Of a stretch of 64,000 bases of DNA, positions 39,660-46,590 are shown in pieces. How positions within the stretch are numbered: position 1 is the stretch's first letter; every line of letters starts with the position of its first letter. The notes below the pieces were generated by a model. That model was not told the origin of the DNA and made no database searches. It saw only the letters and a list, made by a program, of their open reading frames with translations. The stretch lies in the NCBI GenBank assembly GCA_016938875.1, contig JAFGTV010000001.1, forward strand, positions 62,001 through 126,000, in the 5' to 3' direction. The position numbers were made by a program, and so were the translations under genes. Origin of the DNA: Paracoccaceae bacterium. GTDB taxonomy: Bacteria; Pseudomonadota; Alphaproteobacteria; Rhodobacterales; Rhodobacteraceae.

Positions 39660-40097
39660 TCAGCCCTCGATCCAGATTGTAACCGGCCCGTCATTGACCA
39701 ACGACACGGCCATGTCCGCGCCAAAGCGCCCGGTGGCGACCGTCACCCCCAGATCGCGCAGCGCCTGGGCAAACACCTGGTAGAGGTCCGCCCCGATTTC
39801 TGGTGCGGCGGCGGCGGAAAAACCGGGGCGATTGCCGCGTGTCGTATCCGCGGCCAGGGTGAACTGGCTGACCACCAGCGCTGCGCCCCCGGTGTCCAGC
39901 AGCGCGCGGTTCATCTTGTCCGCGTCATCCTTGAATATGCGCATCCGTGCGATCCGTCCGGCCAGCTTTTCGGCGCGGGCCGCGTCGTCCTCCGCCATCG
40001 CGCAGACCAGGATCAACAGCCCCGGCCCGATCTGGCCGATCACCTCGCCGTCGACCCGCACGGCGGCCTCGCTCACCCGCTGAACCAGTGCCCTCAT
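39660..40097 (-). CDS. dtd: D-aminoacyl-tRNA deacylase
   Basis: [66 protein letters not shown]. Confidence 0.95.
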
Positions 40098-40228: not shown

Positions 40229-41335
40229 CTATCCTTGCTGAAGCGCCGTGAAATAGCCGATCCCGGCCGCCAAGAGCGCGCCGATCAGCACGGCCAAGGC
40301 AATCTTCCAGGCCGACCAGGGGCGTTCGCCCTGCACCCGGCCCGATTGCCCGTTGACCACAAAGCGGTAAGTCTTGCCGCGATATTTATAGGCGGCCAGC
40401 CAAACCGGCAGCAGCACATGCTTGAACGTCACGCCAGAGACCTGGGTTTGCAGCGAATTGATCTGTTGGCGGTCGCCGCCGATGTCGAATTTCACATCGC
40501 GCCGAATTACGCGGTCCATCAGCGCGCGGGCCTCGTCATAGCCGTCGGTCAGCGCCACCGTATACCCCTCGGCGCGAAAGCCGGCCAGGTATTCGGGCCG
40601 GTAGGGTTCCAGCGCCGAGAGATCCCACGGCTCCAGCGCGTCGGTATAGCGTTTGGGCAGGCTTTGCGAGGCCAGCACCAGCACATCGTCGAAAAACCGC
40701 GCCACCCGGCCCGAAACCGGCGTCCAGCGCACCTTTTGCACGCGCTCGGTCTGGGTTTGGCCGTTGCGGGTGACATGGCGGGTTTCATAGTAAACCGTGC
40801 CCCGCGCCCCGGTATAGGCAGAGCGGGTATCGGCGTCGAAGGTCCAGAAGGGGACATAAATCCCCTGCATTTTCCGGCCCTTGCGCGCGTAGTCCTTCAG
40901 ACCGTTGGGGGCGAACCACAACCGGCCCAGCCAGTCGTTCATCGCGCTGTGGGCGGCGCGTTCCTCTAGCGCGAAGGGCAGCACGCCGCGCGGTTTGATG
41001 CGCCGTTGCGGGCCGGTATCGGTGACCACGGGGGTGGCGCAGAAGGGGCATTCGGTGGCGTGATCCACCCCGTCCACCTCGAACTCTGCCCCGCAATTGG
41101 GACATTTGAGGCGGCGGACCTCCTCCATCTCGACATGGGGCAGGGCGGCGTCCAGCGCGGCGCGGAAATCCAGCTCGGCGATGGGTGCGGCGGGGGCGGT
41201 CGCGATCGGCGCGGTATGGCCGCAATGGTCGCACACCAGCATCCCCTCGGCGGGGGAAAAGCGGAAATCGGCCCCGCATTGATCGCAGGGAAAGCGGTGT
41301 TCGGTCGGCGCGGGGGGCGGCGCGGTGTCGGGCAT
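40229..41335 (-). CDS. membrane-anchored double zinc-ribbon protein (TFIIB-type ribbon; YdjG-like)
   Basis: CDQCGADFRFSPAEGMLVCDHCG and CPNCGAEFEVDGVDHATECPFC ribbons; C-terminal TM WKIALAVLIGALLAAGIGYFTAL; start more likely at 41335 than 41362. Confidence 0.75.
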   Translation of the reverse strand: MPDTAPPPAPTEHRFPCDQCGADFRFSPAEGMLVCDHCGHTAPIATAPAAPIAELDFRAALDAALPHVEMEEVRRLKCPNCGAEFEVDGVDHATECPFCATPVVTDTGPQRRIKPRGVLPFALEERAAHSAMNDWLGRLWFAPNGLKDYARKGRKMQGIYVPFWTFDADTRSAYTGARGTVYYETRHVTRNGQTQTERVQKVRWTPVSGRVARFFDDVLVLASQSLPKRYTDALEPWDLSALEPYRPEYLAGFRAEGYTVALTDGYDEARALMDRVIRRDVKFDIGGDRQQINSLQTQVSGVTFKHVLLPVWLAAYKYRGKTYRFVVNGQSGRVQGERPWSAWKIALAVLIGALLAAGIGYFTALQQG

Positions 41336-41341
41336 GCGGAT

Positions 41342-41375
41342 GCCTCCGGCAGGGGTATTCATGCCAACAAGAAGA
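41342..41375. repeat. Half-copy C of the dispersed repeat, between the SPFH and zinc-ribbon genes
   Basis: gcctccggcaggggtattcatgccaacaagaaga. Confidence 0.45.
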
Positions 41376-41380
41376 GGCGG

Positions 41381-42490
41381 TTACACACCCGGCGGCGGCG
41401 GTGGCGGGGCCACGGTGAAAAGCTGCGCCAGTTCGGCCACGTCCTCGGCCCGTTTCCAGCCATCCTGACCGGCGGTCCAGACATGGGTTTGCCGCGTCAG
41501 GCGCCCGTCGCCGGCCATCTGGCCCATGGTGGCGCGGGAAAACGGGCCGCTGGTCTGGCCGTTCGCGGCGATGTGCCAGACATGCTCGACCGGGGGTGGG
41601 GGCGGGGCCGGCTGGGGGGCAGGGGCTGGGCCCCAGGGGCCGGGCCGGGCTATCTGGCCCGCCATTGCCATGCCCATGCCCGCACCCAGCCCCGCGGCCA
41701 TGCCGCCACCGGCGGGGTTCTGGGCGGCCGCAGTCATCGCCTCGGCGGCGGAATACTGGGTAAAGCGGCCCAGATCGCCCGCCAGCCCCATCGAGGTGCG
41801 TTTGTCCAGGGCGGCCTCTACCGCGGGGGGCAGGCTGATGTTTTCAATGTAGAATTCCGGCATGGTCAGGCCGTAAGCCTCCAGCGGTTTCGACACTTCG
41901 GCGGCGATCAGCTTGCCCAGGTCGGCGGTATTGGCGGCCATGTCCAGCACCGGGATGCCACTGGCGGCGATCATGCGGGAAAATTCCTGCACGATGATAT
42001 TGCGGATCTGATAGCTGATCTCGTCCATGGTGAATTCGCCGTCGGTGCCGACGATTTCCAGCAGGAAACGCGCGGGGTCCGTCACCCGGATCGAATAGGT
42101 GCCATAAGCGCGAATGCGGGTCGGGCCGAATTCGGGATCGCGCAGCATGATGGGGTTCTTGGTGCCCCATTTCAGATCGTTGAAGCGCGTGGTGTTGACG
42201 AAATAGATTTCCGACTTGAACGGCGATTTGAACCCGTGATCCCAATGCTGAAGCGTGGTCAGCACCGGCATGTTGTTGGTTTCCAGCATGTAGAGACCGG
42301 GGGTGAACACGTCGGCCAATTGTCCCTCGTGGACAAAGACGGCGGCCTGCCCCTCGCGCACGGTCAGCTTGGCGCCGTACTTGATCTCGTGGCCCTCGCG
42401 CTCGAACCGCCAGACCATGGTGTCGCGGGTATCGTCAACCCAGTGGATGACGTCGATGAATTCGCCGGAAAGGAAATCGAAAATGCCCAT
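41381..42490 (-). CDS. SPFH-domain protein (YdjI/'virion core protein'-like) with C-terminal GYF_2-like domain
   Basis: MGIFDFLSGEFIDVIHWVDDTRDTMVWRFEREGHEIKYGAKLTVREGQAAVFVHEGQLADVF; C-terminus VWHIAANGQTSGPFSRATMGQMAGDGRLTRQTHVWTAGQDGWKRAEDVAEL. Confidence 0.85.
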   Translation of the reverse strand: MGIFDFLSGEFIDVIHWVDDTRDTMVWRFEREGHEIKYGAKLTVREGQAAVFVHEGQLADVFTPGLYMLETNNMPVLTTLQHWDHGFKSPFKSEIYFVNTTRFNDLKWGTKNPIMLRDPEFGPTRIRAYGTYSIRVTDPARFLLEIVGTDGEFTMDEISYQIRNIIVQEFSRMIAASGIPVLDMAANTADLGKLIAAEVSKPLEAYGLTMPEFYIENISLPPAVEAALDKRTSMGLAGDLGRFTQYSAAEAMTAAAQNPAGGGMAAGLGAGMGMAMAGQIARPGPWGPAPAPQPAPPPPPVEHVWHIAANGQTSGPFSRATMGQMAGDGRLTRQTHVWTAGQDGWKRAEDVAELAQLFTVAPPPPPPGV

Positions 42491-42520
42491 GGGTCAGGTC
42501 CTTTGGATCGGGTTGGGCGC

Positions 42521-42550
42521 AGTATAGACCGGAGCGTTTGACAAGGTCAC
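42521..42550 (-). promoter_or_regulatory. Candidate internal promoter for the SPFH gene (GTGACC-N18-TATACT)
   Basis: Read on minus strand; -10 at 42526-42521, -35 at 42550-42545. Confidence 0.3.
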
Positions 42551-42571
42551 GCGGAACCGGGGGCGCGGTGC

Positions 42572-43510
42572 TCAGCTCTCGCCGCCCATCAGTTCGGCGG
42601 CGATGGTGTCGATCAGCGGGCGGGCCTCGGCCTCGGTCATGCCGGGGCGCAGACGTCGGTCGTAAAGGATTTGCAGCATCAGTTCATCCTGGGGGGTGAG
42701 CAGGGCGAATTCCTCGTCGTCGTTAAAGATCGAGGGACGCGCGGCGGGGCTGTCATTGGCCAGGCCCATGCCCTGGGCCAGTTCCTCGTGGATACACGAT
42801 TGGCGCAGCCGGGCGGGGTGTTCGGCGCGAATCACCGCGACGGCGTGGGAATAGGTGCTGGTCGGCCCGCGCGAGAAGGCCAGCACCAGGCAAAAGGTCG
42901 AACGCGGGATCGTCGCGATGGTCTGTTGCGCGGTGGTGTCGATGCCGGGCACCAGGCGGCGAAGGTCGGGGCCAAAGCCGCGGCGTTCATCCTCGCTGAG
43001 GATCAGGACGTGGAAATTGGCATCCTCGGGCGCGCCCAGCCGAATGGGAATCCCGGTCAGCCGCGACAGTCGGCGGGTGTATTGCTCGATTTCCCGGGTG
43101 TCGGTGCGGCGCTGTTCGGTGCTGACAGAGGGGCCAAAGACCAGACCCATGCGGATCGGATCTTCCCAGCGGCGCAGACGGCTGACGGTTTCACGCGCGA
43201 CCAACTGGCCCGACTGGGCGACATATTCATCGTAAAGCGCGATGCGGATGAAGTTCTCTACCAGGTTGCGGCGGGAAAACGGCACATCCACCCCGCCGCC
43301 ATCGCTGCGCAACAGCCCGCGCGACACCAGGTCGGCCTCGACCCGTTCGAAATGGCGCGCGATGGCCTGGCTGGCGGGCGAGGGGACGCGCGCGGTTTCC
43401 ACCGGCCGGGTTTCGGGGCGGGGGCCTGCGCCGTCCATCGGCATGACGCACCCTGCCACCCCGAAAAGGGCGGTTCCGGCAACGGCAAGAACGCTACGGC
43501 GCAGGCCCAC
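42572..43510 (-). CDS. DUF2927-type putative lipoprotein with HEExxQxxG motif
   Basis: Lipobox GVAGC; CIHEELAQGMGLANDSPAARPSIFNDDEEFALLTPQDELMLQILYDRRLRPGM. Confidence 0.75.
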   Translation of the reverse strand: MGLRRSVLAVAGTALFGVAGCVMPMDGAGPRPETRPVETARVPSPASQAIARHFERVEADLVSRGLLRSDGGGVDVPFSRRNLVENFIRIALYDEYVAQSGQLVARETVSRLRRWEDPIRMGLVFGPSVSTEQRRTDTREIEQYTRRLSRLTGIPIRLGAPEDANFHVLILSEDERRGFGPDLRRLVPGIDTTAQQTIATIPRSTFCLVLAFSRGPTSTYSHAVAVIRAEHPARLRQSCIHEELAQGMGLANDSPAARPSIFNDDEEFALLTPQDELMLQILYDRRLRPGMTEAEARPLIDTIAAELMGGES

Positions 43511-43517
43511 GGTGCGA

Positions 43518-44696
43518 TCAGACCCCCGGAACGGCGCCAGCGCCGGTTGCGCGCGACTTGGCGGCGGCCAGGGTATCGCGCAATTCGGCCTCCATTTTCT
43601 TGAGGTCGTCCTCGGCCTTGGCGCGGCGGGCCTTGCCCTCGTCCGCGATCTGAAGGCTTTCCTGGATGGTCGCGATCAGGCTGGCATTGGCCTGTTTGAC
43701 GGCCTCGATGTCGAACACGCCGCGCTCCATCTCTTCGCGCACGATCTTGTTGGCCGAACGCAGGTTTTCGGCATTGGCGGTCAACAGCTCGTTGGTCAGG
43801 TCGGTGGCGTCGCGCAGCGCCTCTGCGGCCTCTTTCGAGCGCTGGATCGTCACCGCCTGGGCCAGTTGCGTTTCCCAAAGCGGCACGGTGTTCACCAGCG
43901 TCGAGTTGATCTTGGTGACCAGGGATTTGTCGTTTTCCTGGACCAGCCGGATCGAGGGCAGCGATTGCATCGTCACCTGGCGCGTCAGTTTCAGATCGTG
44001 CACCCGGCGTTCCAGGTCATCGCGCGCGGCGCGCAGGTCGCGCAGTTCCTGGGCCTTGAGCACCTGATCGACCTCGGGGGTGGCGGCAACGGCGGCCTCC
44101 ATCGCGGGGATGTCGGTGGCGTCCAGGATTTTCAGCTTTTCTTCGCCGGCGGCGATGTAAAGTGCCAGCTCGTCATAAAAATCGAGGGTCTTTTCGTACA
44201 GCTTGTCCAACGACTTGATATCCTTGAGCAGCATGTGCTCATGGGTCAGCAGGTTGTCGGTGATCTTGTCGATCTGGGCCTGCACCGTCTCGAACCGGGC
44301 GACGAAATTGGCAAAGGGCGCGGCGCGGCCCAGCAGTTTTTCCCACCAGCTGCGTTCGCGGCGTACATCCAGTTCGGACACCGAAAACCCGCGGATCGTG
44401 GTCACGATCTGGCGCAGGGAATCGCCTGCGGGGCCGACATCCTTGTTGCGCACATCGGCCAGCATCGCCTGGCTGATGACCTGCAATTCGGCCTGCGCGG
44501 ACGACCCAAAGCCGATGATGGAATTGGTGTCGGACATGTCGATCTCGTCCATCCGGGTGCGGATGCCCAGCGCCGCGGCGGGTTCGGCGGACTCTAGCGG
44601 GACAATCTCGGCCGCGGGTTCGGGCAGCAGAACGGCGGTCAGCTGCTCGACCTCTGCGAGGGCCTGCTCGGCTTTTTGGCGGACGGTGTCGGACAT
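43518..44696 (-). CDS. toxic anion resistance protein, TelA family
   Basis: NSIIGFGSSAQAELQVISQAMLADVRNKDVGPAGDSLRQIVTTIRGF; LERRVHDLKLTRQVTMQSLPSIRLVQENDKSLVTKI (TelA/KlaA signature). Confidence 0.92.
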   Translation of the reverse strand: MSDTVRQKAEQALAEVEQLTAVLLPEPAAEIVPLESAEPAAALGIRTRMDEIDMSDTNSIIGFGSSAQAELQVISQAMLADVRNKDVGPAGDSLRQIVTTIRGFSVSELDVRRERSWWEKLLGRAAPFANFVARFETVQAQIDKITDNLLTHEHMLLKDIKSLDKLYEKTLDFYDELALYIAAGEEKLKILDATDIPAMEAAVAATPEVDQVLKAQELRDLRAARDDLERRVHDLKLTRQVTMQSLPSIRLVQENDKSLVTKINSTLVNTVPLWETQLAQAVTIQRSKEAAEALRDATDLTNELLTANAENLRSANKIVREEMERGVFDIEAVKQANASLIATIQESLQIADEGKARRAKAEDDLKKMEAELRDTLAAAKSRATGAGAVPGV

Positions 44697-44698
44697 AA

Positions 44699-45625
44699 TC
44701 ACTCTCCCAAATTGCGCATGTCCCCGTTGGGGTGCACGCCTTCACGCTGCAATCTTTCGCGCAGCACTTCAATCTCGACATCCAGATCGGATCGGTCATC
44801 CAGCAAGAGCGCGCGTGTTCTTGCCGAAAAATTGGACTCCAGATCGGCCAAAAGGGCCTCGTAATCGGCACGCGCGGAAATATCGCGCGTGCGGCTGTAA
44901 AGGTCGGCGAATTTCACCGTCGCGTCGCGCGCACCCAGCAGGTAGACGACCAGATACTTGCGCGCCGCGGTCAGGTCGCGGGGGTCTTCCTCGACGGTGC
45001 GAAACATCTCGCGCACGGTGCTTTGAAAGCGGTCCACGCGCGCCTCCAGCCCGCGATCCCCGGCGCGCCGGATCGCCTCTGTCATGGTGGTCAGGTGCTT
45101 TTCGGCCTCGTCGATGACGCGGGCCACGCGATCCTGCTGAAAGGTATCGACCCCCTCCATCCCCTTGTCGCGCAACGGGTCCAGCCCAAAGGCCGCGCTG
45201 TGCAAAACGGTGCCCAACACCGCAAAGATCGCAGGCGGCACAAAGCCCGCCTCGGGGCCGATGCCCGCCAGGAACAGCCCCGCACCGGTCAGCGCGGAAC
45301 CAAAGATCTTGCGCGGGATCGCCGGGCGGCGGGCGATCTTGCGCGCGGCCCAGGCATCCTCGGCGCGCAGCCCCTCTCGGGTCAGCCAGGCGGCCAACAG
45401 CAACAGACCAAACGCGCCCAGGCTCAGCGCCAGCCCGGTGGGGTCCGAGGCAAAGGCCCGCGGTACCAGCGCCAGCGGCACAAAGAACATCGCATTGGCC
45501 CGTCCCCCCGCACGCGACGGAGCCTTGCCATGAAACGGGTGGCGCGGCGGCGGGGTCTGGCCGCCGGTCTGGCCGGGTGTTTCGCCCGGGGTGGGGCTGA
45601 ATTTTCCACCGTAGCGTTGGGCCAT
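44699..45625 (-). CDS. XpaC-family ('5-bromo-4-chloroindolyl phosphate hydrolysis') protein
   Basis: Two N-terminal TM hairpins then TELMTTM-like coiled region EAEKHLTTMTEAIRRAGDRGLEARVDRFQSTVREMFRTVEEDPRDLTAARKYLVVYLLGARDATVKFADL. Confidence 0.85.
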   Translation of the reverse strand: MAQRYGGKFSPTPGETPGQTGGQTPPPRHPFHGKAPSRAGGRANAMFFVPLALVPRAFASDPTGLALSLGAFGLLLLAAWLTREGLRAEDAWAARKIARRPAIPRKIFGSALTGAGLFLAGIGPEAGFVPPAIFAVLGTVLHSAAFGLDPLRDKGMEGVDTFQQDRVARVIDEAEKHLTTMTEAIRRAGDRGLEARVDRFQSTVREMFRTVEEDPRDLTAARKYLVVYLLGARDATVKFADLYSRTRDISARADYEALLADLESNFSARTRALLLDDRSDLDVEIEVLRERLQREGVHPNGDMRNLGE

Positions 45626-45708
45626 CACGCGCCCCCCACGAACGCAACATAAAGGATCAGCGCGACCAGCAGGAAGAAGGCCAGCTTTTTAAGCCCGGTA
45701 TCCGACAT
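45625..45708 (-). CDS. 27-aa single-TM microprotein at the head of the XpaC/TelA cluster
   Basis: MSDTGLKKLAFFLLVALILYVAFVGGA*; purine-rich AAAGGGGGG upstream; stop overlaps the xpaC-like ATG (TGATG). Confidence 0.6.
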   Translation of the reverse strand: MSDTGLKKLAFFLLVALILYVAFVGGA

Positions 45709-45798: not shown

Positions 45799-46590
45799 CT
45801 AGCGTATACGGCGGGGCGCGCGCTTGGGGCGCGGTTTGGCGGCGGGTTCACCGGCCTTGTCCAGGCCCAGCTGATCGCGCAGTACGCGCGCGCGGATTTC
45901 CTCGACGGCGCCGGGTTTCAGATCGCCCAGCTGAAACGGGCCATAGCTGATGCGGATCAGCCGGTTCACGGTCAGCCCCACGGCCTCCATCGCGCGGCGC
46001 ACCTCGCGGTTGCGTCCCTCGCGGATGCCGACGGTCAGCCAGGCATTGGCGCCCTGCTGGCGGTCCAGGGCGACCTCCATCGGCTGGAACTTTTCGCCCT
46101 CGATCACGATGCCCCGGCGCAGCGGTGCGATCGTCTCGTCGCTGGGCGCGCCCTTGACCCGGACGCGATACTTGCGCAGCCAGCCGGTCGAGGGCAATTC
46201 GAGCCGCCGCTTGATCCCGCCGTCATTGGTCAGCAGCAACAAGCCCTCGGAATTGATGTCCAGCCGACCCACCGACATCACCCGCGGCATGTCCTCGGGC
46301 AGGGCGTCGAACACGGTCTGGCGGCCCTTTTCGTCGCGCTCGGTCGTCACCAGGCCCACGGGCTTGTGATACAGCCACAGCCGGGCGGGTTCTGCCGCGG
46401 CCAGCGGCGCGCCGTTCACGGTGATCTTGTCGGCGGGCGTGACGTTCAGCGCGGGGCTATCGATCCGCTTGCCGTTGACGCTGACGCGACCGGCCTCGAT
46501 CATGCGCTCGGCCTCGCGGCGCGAGGCGACGCCCGCGCGGGCCAGGACCTTGGCGATACGCTCGCCCTGTTGTTGGGTGTTGTTCTCCAT
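45799..46590 (-). CDS. 23S rRNA pseudouridine synthase, RluB-like
   Basis: S4 domain [55 protein letters not shown]. Confidence 0.93.

Follow-up and report, generated by a model that had tools for sequence, protein, structure and literature searches.

A conserved Rhodobacteraceae operon joining XpaC-TelA to a YdjI/YdjG-type SPFH-zinc ribbon pair, a plausible membrane-stress module

TelA has been labelled a tellurite-resistance protein for decades, but to our knowledge no mechanism has been put forward for it; comparative genomics of Ter-dependent systems published in 2012 reportedly discusses it. In Bacillus, the YdjI, YdjG and YdjH proteins connect PspA with the membrane (PMC8581546). In Listeria, the LiaRS regulon includes telA and the adjoining XpaC gene lmo1966, both of which confer nisin resistance (PMC8865564, PMC12791056), and the effect of telA is mainly on nisin, with a 4-fold change compared to 2-fold for tellurite (PMC12791056). 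In Rhodobacter sphaeroides, a telA on the chromosome is reported to contribute to tellurite resistance (O'Gara 1997, cited through PMC6955997); it is likely the telA of the locus described here. The PSP surveys PMC11237479 and PMC9239133 leave TelA unmentioned, and the combination of genes found in the present locus has no description in the open-licence full-text literature; an earlier account elsewhere is possible.

The locus lies in a window of 64 kb, the whole stretch of DNA that was analysed, in a host genome that its named relatives place in the Rhodobacteraceae; it comprises 2.9 Mb in 70 contigs and carries one TelA gene (Table 1). The genes are transcribed in the order microprotein, XpaC, TelA, DUF2927 lipoprotein, SPFH-GYF_2 and zinc-ribbon TM protein. 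An earlier note on this DNA had proposed six co-directional minus-strand ORFs at 40229-45708, the first three tightly packed, with no PspA in the window; all six were found, with families as named (Pfam), the TGATG overlap, a 4-nt overlap of XpaC and TelA and a 7-nt gap between TelA and the lipoprotein are present, and the absence of PspA/IM30 extends to the whole 70-contig assembly. XpaC more probably begins with the ATG at 45625. Gaps of 81 nt (lipoprotein to SPFH) and 18 nt (SPFH to zinc ribbon) follow downstream. In many relatives SPFH and zinc ribbon stand farther apart (median ~116 nt), and many genomes space the lipoprotein, SPFH and zinc-ribbon genes loosely, so expression of the six genes from one transcript is no more than likely.

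Table 1. Genes of the operon and its flanks, with positions in the window
Feature	Position	Strand	Basis and remarks
5' flank: RluB-like pseudouridine synthase, outside the module	45799..46590	(-)	Pfam
Microprotein, 27 aa, single TM, MSDTGLKKLAFFLLVALILYVAFVGGA	45625..45708	(-)	Stop overlaps XpaC start (TGATG)
XpaC-family membrane protein (PF10112)	44699..45628	(-)	Pfam XpaC/Halogen_Hydrol match, E 1.3e-26 (about 1e-26), and alignment
TelA (PF05816), long, all-helical, without TM	43518..44702	(-)	Pfam E 3e-106; AF2 pLDDT 76
DUF2927 lipoprotein, lipobox Cys21	42572..43510	(-)	Pfam E 1.5e-62; AF2 pLDDT 89; Foldseek
SPFH (Band_7_1, PF13421) with GYF_2 and C-terminal polyproline tail PPPPPPGV	41381..42490	(-)	Pfam, Band_7_1 E 2e-101 and GYF_2 E 7e-21; tail conservation
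YdjG-type double zinc-ribbon protein, C-terminal TM anchor	40229..41362	(-)	8 invariant Cys; hhalign
3' flank: dtd, D-aminoacyl-tRNA deacylase, outside the module	39660..40097	(-)	Pfam

The operon is conserved in nearly all Rhodobacteraceae, a family of marine and soil alphaproteobacteria. TelA is present in 73 of 81 genera (~90%) and missing in eight, some of them with near-complete genomes. Order and strand of XpaC, TelA, lipoprotein, SPFH and zinc ribbon are kept in 107 of the 121 loci examined, several of the incomplete ones being cut by contig ends; this arrangement, with gene order kept across genera, exceeds chance. The module also persists where rluB or dtd has been lost, moved or inverted (L047, L068, L070, L079, L086), so the synteny is not a passive one. 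Outside the family, four more families of the class (L034, L035, L036, L039) have a four-gene core in the same order without the lipoprotein, a more distant proteobacterium outside the class carries XpaC-TelA-SPFH/GYF (L167), and XpaC-TelA occurs as a lone pair in L041. Departures from the arrangement occur as well: in G023 XpaC lies ~200 kb from TelA and the rest of the operon, and a Paracoccus replicon bears TelA without an adjoining XpaC. The earlier note had named synteny confined to close relatives as one outcome that would count against it; conservation reaches well past close relatives, and the proposal has come through this check. Its six-gene unit exists here, but the core numbers only four; microprotein and lipoprotein are, as far as tested, additions of the Rhodobacteraceae. 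Its idea that two systems were fused stands insofar as XpaC-TelA is joined to a YdjI/YdjG-type SPFH-zinc ribbon pair without PspA; calling that pair part of the PspA system proved too narrow, because PspA-free SPFH-zinc ribbon pairs occur in Vibrio, Comamonas and Tsukamurella.

The relation of these genes to PspA was analysed in a class sample of 143 alphaproteobacterial genomes, approximately one per family, with statistics that ignore kinship beyond that sampling. XpaC is restricted to TelA-bearing genomes (10/10, p=4e-13), as is the strong Band_7_1 SPFH (7/7, p=8e-9), which adjoins TelA in six of them. PspA shows no association with TelA (p=1), by which mutual exclusion of the two is rejected, and in the same 143 genomes it is independent of XpaC/TelA and of SPFH. 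Among the 81 Rhodobacteraceae, PspA exceeds the cut-off in 16, of which 15 also have TelA. Given this independent distribution, the module is PspA-independent rather than PspA-excluding.

The SPFH and zinc-ribbon proteins are shown by sequence comparison to be homologous to the YdjI/YdjG type. The SPFH protein matches that of an Enterococcus SPFH-ZnR-TPM operon (22% identity, E 1e-12), and the zinc-ribbon protein, whose eight Cys are invariant and whose C-terminus holds a TM segment, can be aligned by hhalign to the Enterococcus member beside the TPM gene over 330 columns (probability 99.9%); against solved structures, generic zinc ribbons were its sole matches. The YdjH-type TPM anchor is absent from the operon, the only TPM gene of the host being located at G000:C2:44633. 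GYF domains bind proline-rich PPG-type motifs, and a polyproline stretch directly follows GYF_2 at the C-terminus in 110 of 115 SPFH proteins, four members from outside the family having a comparable proline-rich ending, for example PPPLPPG. A GYF ligand elsewhere in the module was considered and rejected: XpaC, TelA, the lipoprotein and the zinc ribbon seldom contain PPG motifs (1-4 loci each), and the polyproline stretch is regular only in the SPFH tail. With this known binding preference it is reasonable to envisage a possible self-latch, in which the GYF domain of one SPFH subunit would hold the polyproline tail of another.

The microprotein is, judged by its conservation and substitution pattern, a real gene. 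In all 77 assessable named loci a short TM ORF terminates where XpaC begins, and under a stricter hydrophobicity cut 76 of them still have it; upstream of six other genes the share is 0-7% (no gene exceeding 3 loci), and at random positions it is 8/2040 (0.4%). Substitutions at codon positions 1/2/3 number 308/159/667, with a pN/pS of 0.26. A positive net charge ahead of the hydrophobic core, against one of about zero behind it, suggests an N-in topology. In G023 the microprotein has been relocated together with XpaC, so XpaC is probably its partner. It has no match in Pfam or NCBIfam, and outside Rhodobacteraceae the same search found only a doubtful 38-aa ORF in L034. A second upstream "small TM ORF" was rejected, being the C-terminus of a TerC-family protein.

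XpaC, TelA and the DUF2927 lipoprotein have no significant solved homologue. The AF2 model of TelA, of moderate confidence (pLDDT 76, pTM 0.55), consists of long helices only. A cryptic or divergent PspA or ESCRT-III identity of TelA found no profile or fold support: hhalign against the PspA profile gave no match (probability 0.8%), and no PDB fold scored better than E 0.1, in a fold test that long coiled coils weaken. In the TelA tree, SPFH-linked and XpaC-TelA genes form one group (support 0.88) and those of VWA-type operons a separate one (support 0.88), branching within the former being mostly poorly resolved. The simplest reading would be that the XpaC-TelA and SPFH-zinc ribbon pairs were joined once in an ancestor and that losses followed.

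For the DUF2927 lipoprotein, a confident AlphaFold model (pLDDT 89) was compared with the PDB by Foldseek. Metzincins make up almost the whole of the top 50 matches, most of them catalytic domains of MMPs, with snapalysin also represented (best match E 1.4e-3, probability 1.00, target TM ~0.62). The family motif EELAQGMGLAND sits at the place of the metzincin HExxHxxGxxH and here reads EExxQxxGxxN: E, Q and N occupy the three zinc-histidine positions, and the position of the catalytic Glu is kept. Across 30 sequences E242, E243, G249 and N252 do not vary and Q246 hardly does; SIF replaces the Met-turn. An attempt to establish homology at the sequence level failed, as the comparison with a bacterial M10 profile was not significant (hhalign E 0.12, probability 0.5%), though its sole aligned stretch was the active-site helix, in which H241 appears as an alternative first ligand position. 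We describe the protein as metzincin-like in its predicted fold and do not call it a metzincin. DUF2927 is common in genomes without TelA, and the host genome carries a second copy.

The favoured reading, at about even odds, is that the products of the operon make up a stress-protection complex of the inner membrane working without PspA. In such a complex, XpaC would sit in the inner membrane accompanied by a small TM subunit, the translationally coupled microprotein, and the long helical TelA would dock onto the cytosolic domain of XpaC. The SPFH scaffold would be partly held by GYF domains gripping the polyproline tails of their neighbours, with the tail-anchored zinc-ribbon protein fixing it to the membrane, and the metzincin-like lipoprotein, which lacks the classical zinc triad, might sense or bind peptide or envelope material on the periplasmic side. 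The trigger would be envelope-damaging agents such as cationic peptides, oxyanions such as tellurite, or metal stress. TelA, we infer, may play a part comparable to that of PspA on the SPFH scaffold. The fully specified version, a PspA-independent membrane-surveillance machine core to Rhodobacteraceae in which TelA on XpaC and the microprotein replaces PspA on a self-latching SPFH scaffold, with the pseudo-metzincin lipoprotein as periplasmic sensor, is as a whole doubtful.

The leading rival, itself rather unlikely, is the possibility that microprotein-XpaC-TelA and SPFH-zinc ribbon are co-transcribed for envelope stress without forming one machine. Lone SPFH-zinc ribbon pairs in Vibrio, Comamonas and Tsukamurella, the lone XpaC-TelA of L041, the separation of microprotein-XpaC from the rest in G023 and the Paracoccus replicon all agree with two separable units; the lone pairs and the departure of XpaC in G023 imply that a single complex is not obligatory, and the loose downstream spacing and the moderate confidence of the TelA model also weigh against the favoured reading. 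Against such independence, the gene order is constant across families, every SPFH of this family in the 143 genomes is accompanied by TelA, and the SPFH-linked TelAs fall together in the tree.

An operon dedicated to tellurite or oxyanion resistance is improbable, although the TelA name, the reported contribution of R. sphaeroides telA (PMC6955997) and a TerC neighbour in some loci speak for it; that report also makes the lineage partly studied, so that the earlier statement of a function not worked out there needs qualifying. A TerC-family gene (PF03741) is found near the module in 23 loci (about 20%, none in the 64-kb window) and, in the 22 with readable strand and distance, immediately precedes XpaC in the same orientation. 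As TerC and TelA both bear tellurite or metal stress labels, their neighbourhood points independently to envelope or metal stress, and it likewise counts in favour of the inner-membrane complex. A dedicated tellurite function is opposed by the presence of TelA at a fixed locus in ~90% of genera, beyond what tellurite exposure explains, by an operon without a tellurite enzyme or transporter, and by the mainly anti-nisin effect of the Listeria gene (PMC12791056). Less probable still is a housekeeping scaffold for the assembly of membrane proteins or domains, for example of respiratory or photosynthetic complexes: near-universal occurrence, the fixed position and the role of SPFH proteins as scaffolds of membrane domains and complexes (PMC11237479) would fit it, but homologues of both pairs are stress-induced in Bacillus and Listeria, and TelA is missing in 8/81 genera, some with near-complete genomes. 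An anti-phage or other conflict system is very improbable, since PspA/SPFH-type proteins in conflict contexts and one PHROG family of phage TelA are set against a vertical, single-copy gene set at a fixed locus, without toxin or nuclease and without a PADLOC match, by which a defence system identity was rejected.

The operon is thus real and deeply conserved, and its reading as a membrane-stress module is plausible. In a lineage where PspA is mostly lacking, conserved order and co-occurrence link TelA with XpaC, with an SPFH scaffold and with a YdjG-type anchor, and the culturable Rhodobacter, Ruegeria and their relatives offer a tractable setting in which to ask whether TelA serves a second route of membrane protection. 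Three points extend the earlier note: the support for the conserved, previously unannotated 27-aa gene as real, the predicted fold of DUF2927 and the conserved polyproline tail of SPFH.

Among known systems, xpaC-yaaN of Bacillus and Listeria has the same two adjoining families. In the present locus XpaC precedes TelA and is translationally coupled to the microprotein, and lipoprotein, SPFH-GYF and zinc ribbon follow TelA. The B. subtilis pspA-ydjGHI operon shares the YdjI-type SPFH (Band_7_1) and the YdjG-type double zinc-ribbon TM protein, whereas the present operon has TelA and XpaC, lacks PspA and the TPM protein (YdjH), and its SPFH ends in GYF_2 and polyproline instead of a zinc finger. 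An SPFH and zinc ribbon beside a TPM protein, resembling the Bacillus ydj operon, occur in Enterococcus. The Vibrio, Comamonas and Tsukamurella plasmid pairs comprise the same SPFH and zinc-ribbon families, adjoining, co-directional and PspA-free, with GYF_2 also on the SPFH of Vibrio and Tsukamurella and HTH_17 instead in Comamonas; TelA, XpaC, lipoprotein and microprotein are not alongside. The VWA-type operon of other alphaproteobacteria (L033, L037), arranged as TelA, SBP/VWA, XpaC and an uncharacterised protein, shares TelA and XpaC but differs in TelA group, order and partners and is without SPFH and zinc ribbon; the present operon has no SBP/VWA protein between TelA and XpaC. Finally, the metzincins (MMP catalytic domains, snapalysin) share their fold with the model of the DUF2927 lipoprotein, in which EExxQxxGxxN stands for HExxHxxGxxH, and their active-site helix and downstream L-T-x-x-D..LYD segment are predicted to have counterparts at matching places in the lipoprotein.

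In G023 (loci L179 and L071), XpaC and the microprotein lie ~200 kb from TelA-lipoprotein-SPFH-zinc ribbon, an arrangement that is a naturally split operon. The 1.46-Mb plasmid pFER4 of Paracoccus ferrooxidans (L199) carries TelA-DUF2927-SPFH-zinc ribbon, with neither XpaC nor the microprotein adjoining these genes at the locus. A gene for a TerC-family membrane protein directly precedes microprotein-XpaC in ~20% of the Rhodobacteraceae loci (n=23, L087 and 22 others) and is absent from the 64,000 nt of the window. The host genome (G000) encodes a single TPM (YdjH-type) protein, ~27 kb from its second DUF2927 gene on the same contig.

Coordinates of module-related genes outside the window
Feature	Location
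Second DUF2927 gene, host genome	G000:C2:71401-72003
TPM gene, host genome	G000:C2:44633-45010
TerC-family gene	L087:6057-6944
SPFH-zinc ribbon pair, Vibrio coralliilyticus plasmid	L195:650-2894

On the Vibrio plasmid, the tabulated SPFH-zinc ribbon pair is encoded close to one protein with a TIR domain and one with a TRAFs-binding domain, and its surroundings are possibly a defence neighbourhood. Five alphaproteobacterial loci (L033, L037, L042, L172 and L173) hold a TelA operon of another type; in L033 and L037 its TelA gene is followed by those for an SBP_bac_11+VWA protein, for XpaC and for a protein of ~365 aa that matches nothing in Pfam.
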